Shown: positions 21,394-25,793 of the stretch, in pieces | How the letters are laid out: the number at the start of each line of letters is the position of its first letter | How positions within the stretch are numbered: position 1 is the first letter of the stretch | Source: Kiloniellales bacterium | GTDB taxonomy: Bacteria; Pseudomonadota; Alphaproteobacteria; Kiloniellales; JAKSBE01 | NCBI GenBank assembly: GCA_030066685.1 | Contig: JASJBF010000015.1 | Location: 1 to 64,000, forward strand | Direction of reading: 5' to 3' | Length of the DNA stretch: 64,000 bases | Program-made: the position numbers and the translations under genes | Notes under the pieces: generated by a model | What the model was told of the DNA's origin: nothing | Databases searched by the model: none | Seen by the model: the letters and a program-made list of their open reading frames with translations, nothing else

Positions 21394-22643
21394 GCGCCCG
21401 CCGCCTGACCCTGATCTTCTGCCTGGCCGAGGTCTGTTCCATGACCGGCTTCGCGACCTTCGCCGCGCTGCTGCCGGGCTTCGTCGCGGAATGGTCGCTC
21501 AGCGGCACCGAGGCCGGCTGGATCAACGGCATCTTCTTCGCCGGCTACGTCGCCGCGGTGCCGTTCCTGGTCAGCCTGACCGACCGCCGCGACCCGCGCC
21601 ACGTCTACCTCGCCGCGGCGGCGCTGACCGCGCTCTCCTCCCTCGGCTTTGCGCTCCTCGCCGACGGCTTCTGGCCGGCGCTGGTCTTCCGCGCCCTGGC
21701 CGGAGTCGGCCTGGCCGGCACCTACATGCCGGGACTGAAGTCGCTCACCGATCACCTGGGGGCCGATCACCTGCCGCCGGCCGTGCGCGGGCGCAGCCTG
21801 GCCTTCTACACCGCGACCTTCTCGATCGGCACCAGCCTGTCCTTCCTGCTCGCCGGCGCCCTGGCCGCGCGCTGGGGCTGGCCCTGGGCCTTCGGGCTCT
21901 CCGCCTTGGGCCCGACGGCCGCCGTCCTGCTGGTCTGGCGCGGCGTGCCGCCGGCGGCCGAGGAGCACTTGCCGCCGGTCGAGCACCACGTCCTCGACTT
22001 CCGCCCGGTCCTGGCCAACGCCCGGGCCATGGCCTACGTCCTGGCCTACACCCTGCACAACTGGGAGCTCTTCGCCCTGCGCTCCTGGATCGTCGGTTTT
22101 CTCGTCTTTGCCCAGGCCCAGCAGGCCGGCGCTGCCCTGGGCGTCGGCTGGAGCGCGACCGTCCTCGCCGCGGCGCTCAACCTGCTCGCTCTGCCCGCCA
22201 GCGTCCTGGGCAACGAGGCCGCCGAGCGCTTCGGCCGGCGGCGGGTCGTGATCGCGGTGATGCTGCTCTCGGCCGCGGCCGGTTGCGTCTTCGGCTTTTC
22301 GGCGGCCTGGCCCTTCCTGGTCGTGCTCGCCATCGCGGTCCTCTACAGCCTCACGGTCCCGGGCGACTCCGCCGCGGTCACCACCGGCGCGGTGGCCGCG
22401 GCCCGGCCGGGACAGCGCGGCCAGACCATGGCCGTGCATTCGACCATCGGCTTCCTCGGTGGCTTCGCCGGGCCGCTGGTCTTCGGCGTGGTGCTCGACC
22501 TCGGCGGCGGCGACGGCAGCCTGCTGGGCTGGGGCCTGGCCTTCGCCTCCTCCGGCCTGGCGGTGGCCTTAGGGCCGCTGGCCCTGCTCTGGCTCGACCG
22601 CGCGCCGCCGCCCCGCGGCGCAGGACCGGAAGGCTGCGGCTGA
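21390..22643 (+). CDS. MFS transporter (second of a tandem pair)
   Basis: A 417-residue paralogue of the preceding transporter with the same topology: SLTDRRDPRHVY in loop 2-3, FRALAGVGLAGTYMPGLK in helix 4-5 and LAYTLHNWELFALRSWIVGF at the start of the second half. Coupled to its partner by a 4-bp overlap. An inverted repeat with a T-run 130 bp downstream (22773-22802) may end the transcript. The substrate is unknown; drug or metabolite efflux would fit the family. Confidence 0.9.
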   Translation: MSARRLTLIFCLAEVCSMTGFATFAALLPGFVAEWSLSGTEAGWINGIFFAGYVAAVPFLVSLTDRRDPRHVYLAAAALTALSSLGFALLADGFWPALVFRALAGVGLAGTYMPGLKSLTDHLGADHLPPAVRGRSLAFYTATFSIGTSLSFLLAGALAARWGWPWAFGLSALGPTAAVLLVWRGVPPAAEEHLPPVEHHVLDFRPVLANARAMAYVLAYTLHNWELFALRSWIVGFLVFAQAQQAGAALGVGWSATVLAAALNLLALPASVLGNEAAERFGRRRVVIAVMLLSAAAGCVFGFSAAWPFLVVLAIAVLYSLTVPGDSAAVTTGAVAAARPGQRGQTMAVHSTIGFLGGFAGPLVFGVVLDLGGGDGSLLGWGLAFASSGLAVALGPLALLWLDRAPPPRGAGPEGCG

Positions 22644-22951
22644 CCCCCTTTGGCTCCGCATCACCGGAGCAGCGCCGTCCCTTGCATCCCTGCTGTGAAA
22701 ATTTTGTGACCATAGCAAACCCACGGTTGTGCAACGTTGGCGGGCGGCGTTAACCTTTCTCCACGCCTAATGGGAGAGAAACCCGCGAGCCTCTCTCCTT
22801 TTGATCAGCACAGCGACATTGAGGGAGGCCGTCGCTGATGCCGAAAAGGCGGTCTCTTGAAGCAAGTGTTCCACGTCACCGGACGCCGGCGGACGCCGGT
22901 CCCGCACGGCCTTGCTTCGCGCCTCCGCACCACCGAAGGGAGGACTTCGAC
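22644..22951 (+). other. 308-bp intergenic region behind the MFS pair
   Basis: No gene seen. It contains an AT-richer stretch around 22690-22730 (TGTGAAAATTTTGTGACC), the 20-mer GCGGCGTTAACCTTTCTCCA at 22744-22763 that recurs near 2.4 kb, a terminator-like hairpin at 22773-22802 and a strong Shine-Dalgarno GAAGGGAGGA just ahead of the EF-hand gene. Part of it is probably the promoter of that gene. Confidence 0.4.
22773..22802 (+). terminator. Hairpin followed by T-run
   Basis: GGAGAGA (22773-22779) pairs with TCTCTCC (22792-22798) and is followed by TTTT on the plus strand. It would serve as an intrinsic terminator of the MFS pair, or as an attenuator in the leader of the EF-hand gene. Confidence 0.5.
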
Positions 22952-23227
22952 ATGCCGAAGCCGATCACGCTACTGGTCGCCGCGGGCTGCTTGAGCCTGG
23001 CCTGGTCCCTGGCCGGGCCGGCCCTGGCGGACGAACCCGAGCGCCTGACGCTGACCACCGCGCGCGCGATGGACAGCGACAAGGACGGGCAAATCTCCGA
23101 GGCCGAGTTCCTTGCCCAGTCCGACGACGCCGAGCTCTGGGCGGAACTGGATGCCAATGCCGACGGCGTTTTGGACGCCCAGGAGCAAAGGCAGGCCATC
23201 CAGGTACGGCCGGTCACGGCGAACTGA
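22952..23227 (+). CDS. Small secreted EF-hand protein
   Basis: A 91-residue precursor with a signal peptide ending ...GPALADEP. The mature part carries two EF-hand calcium loops: DSDKDGQISEAEF and DANADGVLDAQEQ, the latter with the full DxNxDGxLxxxE pattern. The start ATG 22952 follows GAAGGGAGGA with good spacing; the frame extends upstream without homology. It lies 190 bp ahead of an acidic secreted beta-propeller in the same direction, so both may act in calcium binding outside the cytoplasm. Specific function unknown. Confidence 0.85.
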   Translation: MPKPITLLVAAGCLSLAWSLAGPALADEPERLTLTTARAMDSDKDGQISEAEFLAQSDDAELWAELDANADGVLDAQEQRQAIQVRPVTAN

Positions 23228-23417
23228 GCGCCGCCGCGCAACAGCAACGGACGGTCGAATCCGTCTCGCGGCCGAGGCGCTCTTCCCGGGTCCCTCGAGC
23301 GGCAGCTTCGGCACGCCGGCCCAGCCTGCGGAGCCGAGCCGGCCCGAGGGACCGAGCCCCCAACCGCCGCCGGTCCTCGACCGTCAGATCTCGATCCGAC
23401 ACGGAGGACACAAGATC

Positions 23418-24956
23418 ATGAAACCCCTGACCTTCGCGAAGCCCCTTGCGGCCGGAGTCCTGGCCGCCGGCCTGCTCGCCCCGGGTGCCGCCTGGGCGGA
23501 CGACGACGACGATGACGACGACGGCATCCGAGTCGAGGGTCCGGTCCAGGTCTCCGACGACAGCCCCTTCGGGCCGCTGGAGAACTGCGGCAACTTCCCG
23601 AGCGGCGGGACCAATTTCCTGAACTCCGAGGTCGAGCCCTGGCTCGACGTCAATCCCACCGACGCCGACAACCTGGTCGCCTTCTGGCAGCAGGACCGCT
23701 GGTCGAACGGCGGCGCCCGCAGCAACGTCGCGGGCGTGACCTTCGACGGCGGCCGGACCTGGCAGAGCGTCGTGGTGCCCGGCCTGACCGAATGCTCCGG
23801 CGGGCCCTTCGAGCGCGCCTCGGATCCCTGGGTCTCCTTCGCCCCGGACGGCACGCTGCATCAGATGTCCCTGGTTGTGAACCTGCCGACCTTCGCCGGG
23901 CGCAACGGCATGGCGGTCAGCCGCTCCCTGGACGGCGGCCTGACCTGGACCGATCCGATCTTCGTCATCGACGAGGACACGCCGGGCGTCCTGAACGACA
24001 AGAACGCGCTGACCGCGGATTCCACCGACTCAAACTTCGTCTACGGGGTCTGGGATCGCCTCGAGCTTTTGCCGGGCGGCAACTTCCAGGGCCCGGCCTA
24101 CCTCGCCCGCACGACCGACGGCGGCGTGAGCTGGGAGGAATCGCGGGAGATCTTCAATCCCGGGATCAACAACCAGACGATCGGCAACCAGGTCCTGGTA
24201 CTGCCCGACGGCACGGTGATCGACTTCTTCAACGAGATCATCAACGTCCTGCCCGACGGCACGCCCAACCCGGTCAACCCGCCCTTCAACTTCGCCTTCA
24301 TCAAGTCCTTCGACAAGGGTGCGACTTGGGATGCCGCCTCGACAAAGGTCGAGCAGATCCTCTCGCAGCAGGTCAGCACGCCGGACACCGGGGCGACGGT
24401 GCGCGACGGCAACCTGATCTTCGACGTCGCGGTCGATCCCAAGCGCGGCTGGCTCTACGCGGTCTGGCAGGACGCCCGCTTCACCGGCTTCGATCAGGTC
24501 GCCTTCATCCAGTCCAGGAACCGCGGCCGGAGCTGGTCCGAACCGGTCCGCATCAACCTGACCCCGGAAAACGCCGCCAACCCGCTCCGGCAGCAGGCCT
24601 TCCTGCCCTCGGTCGCGGTCGGCCGGGATGGCCGGGTCGCGGTCAGCTACTACGACTTCCGCAACGACGGCGAAAGCGGCGAGCTGACGGACCACTTCAT
24701 GATCTTCTGCGACCGCCGCTGCGACCGCCGCCGCAGCTGGGGCCAAGAGGTCCGCCTGACCGCAGAGTCCTTCGACTACCTGACGGCGCCGCAGGCCAAC
24801 GGCCTCTTCCTCGGCGACTACATGGGCCTCGCGGCCAAGGACGGCAGCTTCTTCTCGTTCTTCCAACAGTCCTCGCCCGAGGACTTCGCCGACGGCTTCT
24901 TCGCCCGGGTCGACCCGGACGACGACGACGATGACGACGGGGACGACGACGATTAG
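23418..24956 (+). CDS. Secreted sialidase-fold beta-propeller with poly-Asp at both ends
   Basis: A 512-residue protein with signal peptide (MKPLTFAKPLAAGVLAAGLL..., cleaved near AWA). The mature N-terminus is a run of eight Asp and the C-terminus is another Asp run broken by one Gly. Between them are at least five Asp-box (BNR) turns: FDGGRTWQ, LDGGLTWT, TDGGVSWE, FDKGATWD and RNRGRSWS, the hallmark of six-bladed sialidase-like propellers. The Arg triad and the Glu/Tyr of true sialidases are not evident, so sugar hydrolysis is unlikely to be safe to call. Acidic ends suggest calcium or cation binding. Start ATG 23418 after GGAGGA. Confidence 0.85.
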   Translation: MKPLTFAKPLAAGVLAAGLLAPGAAWADDDDDDDDGIRVEGPVQVSDDSPFGPLENCGNFPSGGTNFLNSEVEPWLDVNPTDADNLVAFWQQDRWSNGGARSNVAGVTFDGGRTWQSVVVPGLTECSGGPFERASDPWVSFAPDGTLHQMSLVVNLPTFAGRNGMAVSRSLDGGLTWTDPIFVIDEDTPGVLNDKNALTADSTDSNFVYGVWDRLELLPGGNFQGPAYLARTTDGGVSWEESREIFNPGINNQTIGNQVLVLPDGTVIDFFNEIINVLPDGTPNPVNPPFNFAFIKSFDKGATWDAASTKVEQILSQQVSTPDTGATVRDGNLIFDVAVDPKRGWLYAVWQDARFTGFDQVAFIQSRNRGRSWSEPVRINLTPENAANPLRQQAFLPSVAVGRDGRVAVSYYDFRNDGESGELTDHFMIFCDRRCDRRRSWGQEVRLTAESFDYLTAPQANGLFLGDYMGLAAKDGSFFSFFQQSSPEDFADGFFARVDPDDDDDDDGDDDD

Positions 24957-25394
24957 GGGTCTCGATGGGACGGGCGCGACGTCTCGGGGCGCCGCGCCCC
25001 GTCTCTCCAGAGCAACCCCGAGCGATGGCGTCACAATGCAGACTGGCATACGACTTACGTAGAAATTTTTTCGTTTCTATAAACCTATAGTTGCATTCCT
25101 ACGCGGCGGCGCGCTAGTATGCCTTTGCGCTTATGAGAAGAAGAACACCTAGATCTATACTCTTTTAGAGGAATATCACGATATGGCGAGATCGATCCGG
25201 CGGACCGCGTGTTCCACAGAGGGATCCTCGCCGAGGCCTGATGACCGGACATGAATGCCCCGACTGACCGGAGCATCCCGGTGGGTGGCGTCCCAACGCC
25301 ACCTTTTTCTTTTCTATGCCTGGCAAACGAGAGGCGGCGGGTCAGATCGTACGCCGCCGCAGGAACGGCCGAATCGAGCTCTTGGCAGACCGAC
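24957..25394. other. 438-bp AT-richer intergenic region
   Basis: No convincing gene. The stretch 25040-25180 is clearly lower in GC than its surroundings, has a small inverted repeat (TAGAAA 25060-25065 and TTTCTA 25074-25079) and a TATACT box near 25156. It ends in a textbook plus-strand terminator at 25284-25314. A terminator this far (330 bp) behind the propeller gene could instead close a small RNA of 100-150 nt that begins in the AT-rich part. Confidence 0.4.
25284..25314 (+). terminator. Intrinsic terminator
   Basis: Perfect 8-bp stem GGTGGCGT (25284-25291) and ACGCCACC (25296-25303) with loop CCCA, followed by TTTTTCTTTTC. It is the best intrinsic terminator of the window and has no gene directly upstream on the plus strand, only the propeller gene 330 bp away. 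Confidence 0.85.
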
Positions 25395-25793
25395 TCAACT
25401 GTCTGAATGGGTGGTCGCGATCACACGAATCTCGACGATCGCACCTTCGCGCCTGAGGCCCGCGACCTCGATCGCCGTCCATGCCGGATAGGGTTCCTCC
25501 AGGTATCGGAGGCGGATCGAGTCGAAGAGGTCGAAATGTCCGCGAAGACCGACGTGGTAGCTCGTCATCTCGACCACCGATCGAAACTCCAGGCCCGCCT
25601 CGCCCAGCACCATCCCAATCTTCTCAAAGGCATTCCGGAATTGAGTCCCTGGATCCTCTGGCATGTCTCCCTGCAAGTCACTCCCGGTGACACCGGTCAG
25701 AAACACGTGATTATCGGACAGGATGGCCGGAGACATCTTCACTTGGTCTGCCGCTGCGCGAAGCTGCGGCGGTACGATCGCGCGCTTGGTCAT
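25395..25793 (-). CDS. RidA/YjgF-family protein lacking the catalytic arginine
   Basis: A 132-residue RidA-fold protein (SDNHVFLTGVTG, QFRNAFEKIGMVLGEAGL, EPYPAWTAIEVAGL, VEIRVIA). In true RidA enzymes, which hydrolyse reactive enamine or imine intermediates, the last third reads PARSxxEV and the Arg binds the substrate carboxylate. Here the motif is PAWT, so the Arg is missing and deaminase activity of the RidA kind is unlikely; it fits the divergent Rid subfamilies. Start ATG 25793, weak Shine-Dalgarno. Base composition is less GC-biased than that of neighbours, as in the adjacent gap. Confidence 0.8.
   Translation of the reverse strand: MTKRAIVPPQLRAAADQVKMSPAILSDNHVFLTGVTGSDLQGDMPEDPGTQFRNAFEKIGMVLGEAGLEFRSVVEMTSYHVGLRGHFDLFDSIRLRYLEEPYPAWTAIEVAGLRREGAIVEIRVIATTHSDS

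Follow-up and report, generated by a model that had tools for sequence, protein, structure and literature searches.

Why should an exported beta-propeller of an alphaproteobacterium begin and end its mature chain with runs of aspartate, and does the EF-hand gene just upstream belong with it? The question arises from a stretch of 64,000 nucleotides of a Kiloniellales bacterium (the window), in which the following features were placed.

22763 to 22951, plus strand: leader preceding the EF-hand gene; it can be aligned across the genus's three species (G000, the window genome; G001; G002)
22952 to 23227, plus strand: open reading frame of 91 amino acids for an exported small protein with two EF-hand loops (translation, Pfam, homologues in G001, G002, and G239)
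23072 to 23107, plus strand: EF-hand loop 1, DSDKDGQISEAE (sequence, alignment)
23150 to 23185, plus strand: EF-hand loop 2, DANADGVLDAQE (sequence, alignment)
23228 to 23417, plus strand: intergenic stretch of 190 bp between the EF-hand gene and the propeller gene
23418 to 24956, plus strand: propeller open reading frame of 512 amino acids (ATG at 23418, stop at 24954 to 24956)
23418 to 23498, plus strand: propeller signal peptide ending in GAAWA (by eye; G002 and G239 likewise have AWA and then an Asp run)
23499 to 23522, plus strand: Asp8 cap at the N terminus of the mature chain (G002 and G239 carry an Asp run in this position too)
23523 to 24908, plus strand: sialidase-type beta-propeller with BNR/Asp-box repeats (Pfam, AlphaFold model, PDB matches)
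24918 to 24953, plus strand: C-terminal Asp cap, DDDDDDDGDDDD (C-terminal Asp runs also in G002 and G239)
25283 to 25304, plus strand: terminator-like stem with a T-rich tail downstream of the propeller gene (the scan found 2 such sites in the region versus 2.1 expected from shuffles)

A preliminary description of this DNA had placed the EF-hand gene 190 bp upstream of the propeller gene, with both proteins exported and Asp runs at both ends of the mature propeller, and each of these statements was confirmed. The gap measures exactly 190 bp, signal peptides are recognizable by eye in both proteins, the eight Asp residues directly follow the predicted signal-peptidase site (MKPL...GAAWA, then DDDDDDDDG), and the chain closes with D7-G-D4. 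The small protein contains two canonical 12-residue loops of the form D-x-[DNS]-x-[DNS]-G...E, spaced by 14 residues, and exceeds the cut-offs of Pfam EF-hand_1 (PF00036; 31.1 versus 25.4 bits) and EF-hand_5 (PF13202; 30.2 versus 25.9 bits), identifying it as an EF-hand protein with putative Ca2+ binding. Lanmodulin, which has four EF loops with Pro at position 2, is likewise exported with its loops close together, but the window protein has two loops, no Pro at loop position 2, and an NCBIfam score of 29.4 bits against a cut-off of 135, and this assignment was rejected. The NCBIfam family XopAW was also discarded (score far below the cut-off). Upstream of the EF-hand gene, the leader shows good conservation across the three species, carries ATCAGC...GCTGAT-like complementary stretches, and is possibly a regulatory element; a blastn search with positions 22763 to 23454 matched G001 at 77%. 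The promoter and terminator scan around the pair found only one promoter-like site beyond chance (25133 to 25161) and, on the plus strand of the intergenic stretch, no terminator-like or promoter-like site. An RNA family match at 22600 to 25500 was single and far below its gathering score and was not retained.

The propeller scores above the cut-offs of Pfam BNR_2 (PF13088; 37.9 versus 31.4 bits) and BNR (PF02012; 29.2 versus 27 bits), which places it among the BNR/Asp-box proteins. An AlphaFold model built from a nine-row alignment is of middling confidence (mean pLDDT 67, pTM 0.73), with pLDDT below 50 at both ends. In a Foldseek search of the PDB, the best matches to this middling-confidence model were sialidases and related glycosidases (best E value, 9.6e-11; TM-score by query length, 0.43), and the probability reached 1.00 for many sialidases, indicating a sialidase-type fold. 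When Foldseek's top 1000 chains were re-aligned, the Photorhabdus PLL/PHL propeller lectins came out best (Z 24.7, rmsd 2.8 over 290 residues), yet with 13% identity, and sialidases followed at Z of about 20 to 21. The (F/Y)RIP motif is the site of the first catalytic Arg in GH33 sialidases; no RIP motif is present in the 512-residue propeller sequence. The propeller shares its Asp-box repeats and fold with the BNR "sialidase family" and GH33 sialidases but differs from them in the missing RIP motif, the poly-Asp at both ends, and the linked EF-hand gene. Going by the model, it is more likely a protein of sialidase-fold or PLL-lectin type that binds glycan than a sialidase.

Judged by sequence comparison, three genomes from two families share the whole architecture as a unit, which upholds the earlier view of the EF-hand protein and the propeller as a pair. 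A second species of the genus (G002; 90% identity) has Asp runs at both propeller ends and the EF-hand gene upstream. In G239, from another family of the class, the propeller is 64% identical (61% by blastp) and is capped at either end (AWA|DDDDDDG and ...DDDDDDDDDGQS); the gene for an exported EF-hand protein with two loops (40% identity) ends 129 bp upstream of it. An EF-hand gene thus lies directly upstream in 3/3 capped propellers. The flanking genes differ between the window and G239, so a conserved gene order alone does not account for the pair. G001, the third species of the genus, departs from this pattern: it keeps the EF-hand gene at 73% identity and the intergenic stretch, but its propeller gene, on one contig with them, is reduced to about 13 initial codons (L034, 10330 to 10450). 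This suggests that the EF-hand protein is not only a propeller accessory but has some use alone; the pair is conserved, but this case speaks against a tight one.

The propeller family was detected at E ≤ 1e-10 in two of 385 evenly sampled genomes of the class (the window genome and G239), and 7 of the 58 genomes of the order set matched the propeller at E ≤ 0.001, mostly through paralogues. Seventeen uncapped homologues were examined: seven genome_contigs records (Rokubacteria, Proteobacteria, Gemmatimonas, and Solirubrobacter), nine plasmid loci from Burkholderiaceae and Deinococcus, and G019, from the same order as the window genome. The plasmid loci are 9 of the best 10 among 20 plasmid records, all below 60% identity (H4 and the other 10 were left out); two plasmid homologues are annotated "sialidase family protein." The longest Asp run is 1 to 3 residues in 17/17 of these homologues, and no EF-hand loop was found in any open reading frame of at least 30 codons in their examined flanks (upstream, 1.9 to 2.0 kb for L027 and L028, 3 kb for L204 and L205, and at least 5 kb for the others). 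The preliminary description held that homologues without tracts and EF-hand neighbor would make the caps a local product; the comparison divides, in that the near clade (G002 and G239) keeps all three features and the 17 distant homologues have neither tracts nor a flanking EF-hand loop.

In a phylogenetic tree of 25 rows, the three capped propellers formed one clade (100/99) that was recovered in 100% of 200 bootstrap trees, and 2 of 500 label shuffles gave a value as low. Asp runs of five or more residues were shortened before alignment, and therefore the caps could not have created this clade; the tree program flags G239 among the long rows, which makes its placement less sure. The remaining five rows, distant paralogues of the same lineages, include four with Asp runs of their own of 5 to 20 residues (internal and/or C-terminal) and one (L036) with none. 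The tree did not include L203, which is the L212 site again, L030, probably identical to G002, or two paralogues that both have Asp runs (L039 and L041). Since the more distant homologues lack the caps and, in the flanks examined, the EF-hand neighbor, these two features were, most simply, gained once, with the capped clade.

The preliminary description overlooked that Asp tracts are a genome-wide habit of exported proteins rather than special to the propeller, and the propeller caps emerge from the sequence survey as one case of a lineage habit of placing poly-Asp on the ends of such proteins. Across the whole genome, (GAY)7 gave 31 overlapping matches, corresponding to 17 tracts of at least seven Asp in 16 proteins, versus 0 matches for the pattern read backwards and 1 for (GAR)7 (Glu7 once), so that the tracts are not due to chance. 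An export signal was recognized by eye in 16/16 carriers, a count that stands without a baseline share of exported proteins in the genome; 14 signals are Sec-type, one is twin-arginine (PhoX family), and one is a Tad-type membrane anchor with a VWA domain. Thirteen of the 17 tracts sit at the mature N terminus (five, within one residue of the predicted signal-peptidase site) or no more than 7 residues from the C terminus (eight), and four are internal. The carriers above family cut-offs include M28 and S8 peptidases, gamma-glutamyltransferase, PhoX, penicillin acylase, beta-helix, NHL, and LVIVD/choice-of-anchor B proteins, and the 17-kDa antigen family, and several carriers matched no family. 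One further protein (L124) shows an acidic stretch immediately behind its signal peptide and finishes with six Asp. The earlier statement that Asp tracts are rare is accurate for the class, where six Asp followed by TRR (D6-TRR) occur in 15 of 385 genomes, but not for the window genome, which has the maximum of five.

Among relatives, (GAY)7 tracts occur in three open reading frames of G001, all three seemingly exported, and in eight of G239, of which seven look exported and the eighth looks spurious. Within the order set, D6-TRR is present in 8/58 genomes including the window genome (16 matches, two of them TGG), and six Asp before a true stop occur 14 times in seven genomes (nine in this genus, four in family f5, and one elsewhere). 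E6-TRR is found in none of the 58 genomes, and six Asp after A-x-A are found in 12. In other lineages, some carriers appear by eye to be cytoplasmic or inner-membrane proteins, namely a 4Fe-4S protein (L111 and L112), a TatC-like protein (L109), and a transporter-like protein (L118), which argues against a strict export rule.

Several individual carriers were also recorded. Subtilase-like proteins of relatives (L093, L094, L095, and L177, by eye) contain, close to the mature N terminus, 24 to 42 consecutive Asp residues. A protein of the 17-kDa-antigen family (PF16998) in the window genome (L134, contig C43) and its look-alikes (L075, L090, and L096 to L100) combine a post-signal Asp run with His/Lys-rich stretches, a composition that suggests metal binding. 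In G239, a 3HB-oligomer hydrolase (PF10605; L179, 2709 to 4910) with Asp runs after the signal peptide and inside lies 2.5 kb from the EF-hand/propeller module, and a look-alike in G001 (L178, by eye) has an internal Asp7. Finally, a choice-of-anchor B protein of the window genome (L136, contig C50) matches TIGR04312 with 411 bits over residues 92 to 475 of 496 and then ends in poly-Asp (DDDDDDDGDGDDDD).

We tentatively favor, at somewhat less than an even chance, a two-gene exported module in which the poly-Asp tails of the propeller would bind Ca2+ or other divalent cations and hold the protein at the surface or matrix. After export, the disordered tails would bind these cations weakly but in number, and the loaded tails would hold, cross-link, or condense the propeller on anionic surface or matrix polymers. 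The propeller itself would bind glycan, and the EF-hand partner would buffer or sense calcium in the same compartment. The preliminary description had likewise considered a calcium-dependent role at the surface conceivable, in adhesion or in binding matrix or mineral; such a role stays hypothetical. The glycan-binding part is supported by the alignment to PLL/PHL lectins at Z 24.7. The calcium part is supported by the EF-hand partner of all three capped propellers, set against the absence of EF-hand loops near the 17 uncapped ones, and by the preference for Asp over Glu (17 tracts of at least seven Asp versus one (GAR)7), since charge alone would not require Asp. Two further observations point the same way. 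Two exported proteins of G307 (L117 and L122) combine EF-like loops with an Asp-rich tail in a single chain; by eye, each has two loops, one canonical and the other with Ser for Gly, and a long Asp-rich C-terminal tail. In DD-x-DD, the separator is most often Gly (9 of 16 contexts, which are not fully independent, 3 of the 9 coming from one protein), and this gives DxDxDG-like strings.

By analogy, the calcium interpretation also draws on eukaryotic proteins with acidic ends in calcium-rich surroundings: in the available parts of the sources, the N-terminal D-repeat of asporin is reported to interact with calcium (PMC6771297), and progressive Ala substitution in the acidic C terminus of calsequestrin is reported to lower calcium binding in parallel (PMC4389316). 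Both are unrelated to the propeller, so the comparison is one of working principle only. Other evidence weighs against the calcium interpretation. G001 keeps the EF-hand gene without the propeller, and no such EF-hand neighbor was found for the other poly-Asp genes, save for one weak match to the window protein in 20 stretches around them (L184; 36%, E = 8e-5). Poly-Asp ends also occur on the seemingly non-exported proteins of other lineages, and the type II secretion genes beside the G239 pair, together with Asp tags reported to raise secretion in Escherichia coli, also fit an export role.

That export role, a close rival that we rate only slightly below the calcium-tail interpretation, would make the caps charge tags for export and solubility: acidic residues after the signal peptide would help translocation, and acidic tails would favor release, perhaps through type II secretion. 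It and the calcium-tail interpretation are not mutually exclusive. In G239, the pair lies directly upstream, on the same strand, of prepilin peptidase, gspE, gspF, and gspG (L179, 7412 to 15383), and 1 of the 17 uncapped loci (L212, same site as L203) also adjoins gspG. Yet a tblastn search with five G239 gsp proteins found no type II genes near poly-Asp genes at E ≤ 1e-4 in the window and the 20 stretches (13 of G000, 4 of G001, 1 of G002, and 2 of G239; a small part of each genome). Further pseudopilin-like open reading frames stand in line with the EF-hand, propeller, and secretion genes of G239; the L203/L212 site, on a Paraburkholderia largidicola plasmid, has no gsp gene other than gspG annotated in the 25 kb examined.

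Engineered tags provide the closest parallel to such an export role, combining a signal peptide and a short Asp run on an exported enzyme. According to the available parts of two reviews (PMC10607044 and PMC6027335, citing Kim et al. 2015), a pelB signal plus five Asp sent Escherichia coli asparaginase II into the medium, and Asp tags raise solubility. Those tags are artificial, whereas the tracts described here occur naturally, with up to 42 residues in the subtilase-like protein of a relative. As a point against an export role, Glu should serve equally well and is hardly used, and the uncapped propeller homologues also have signal-peptide-like starts (by eye). A charge effect over the first 18 mature residues was reportedly proposed by Kajava in 2000. 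Most bacterial mature chains do carry net negative charge, but no charge pattern is seen past the fifth mature residue, and the older proposal was not borne out (PMC2638155).

Tolerated repeat expansion, in which GAC repeats arise by slippage and persist without function at the exposed ends of exported proteins, is improbable. The ends of proteins tolerate change, and the N-terminal tracts of G000 and G002 differ by one codon, with GAT at the same place. GAT use in the tracts (0.29) is also not significantly different from that elsewhere in these genes (0.24; Fisher P = 0.20). We compared codon patterns in 19 tracts of six or more Asp (17 of at least seven and two of six), some of them in related proteins and hence not fully independent. 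None of the 19 is pure GAC (expected, 2.5 from the Asp codon use of the same genes or 1.5 from that of the tracts), and the mean longest same-codon run, 3.21, is shorter than expected (4.44, P = 0.0004; 4.02 with the tracts' own GAT frequency, P = 0.014). These synonymous GAT interruptions argue against recent slippage, as do the both-end Asp runs persisting at 61 to 64% identity in another family, the exported appearance of all 16 carriers, and the preference for Asp over Glu. Slippage, raised in the preliminary description as a local origin of the caps, is thus unlikely to account for them, given the codon mix and the retention of both tracts and the EF-hand neighbor in G002 and G239; it supplies variation, with codon mix and persistence across families pointing to selection for Asp.

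It is very improbable that a dedicated machine recognizes the C-terminal tracts for sorting or anchoring, as in PEP-CTERM or LPXTG systems, since tracts are also N-terminal and internal and a search of this one genome for exosortase (PF09721) gave no match, even though the choice-of-anchor B protein ends in poly-Asp where members of its family elsewhere have their anchor.

The calcium-tail interpretation of the propeller module may extend further. Terminal poly-Asp could be a general, portable, Asp-specific end-tag on exported proteins of some Alphaproteobacteria, selected for cation-gated retention or release, with the EF-hand partner serving in the propeller module; we regard this as somewhat unlikely in its full form. 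Such a tag would be found at the mature N or C terminus of enzymes, propellers, and proteases unrelated to one another and would be spared from pure codon runs, a picture that we hold with similar reserve. The folds themselves are already known. A full-text literature search, with most subscription papers outside its scope, found no description of terminal poly-Asp on bacterial exported proteins, of a conserved EF-hand protein with a double-capped propeller, or of poly-Asp capping of numerous exported proteins in one lineage; the end runs may be a tag of undescribed type. Should terminal poly-Asp work as a tag, it would be a simple way to alter the fate of many exported proteins together and a natural equivalent of the Asp tags with which higher secretion has been reported in E. 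coli. The same propeller exists in nature with and without caps, so a direct test is possible, and the module gives access to the role of a widespread group whose sole annotation is "sialidase family protein."
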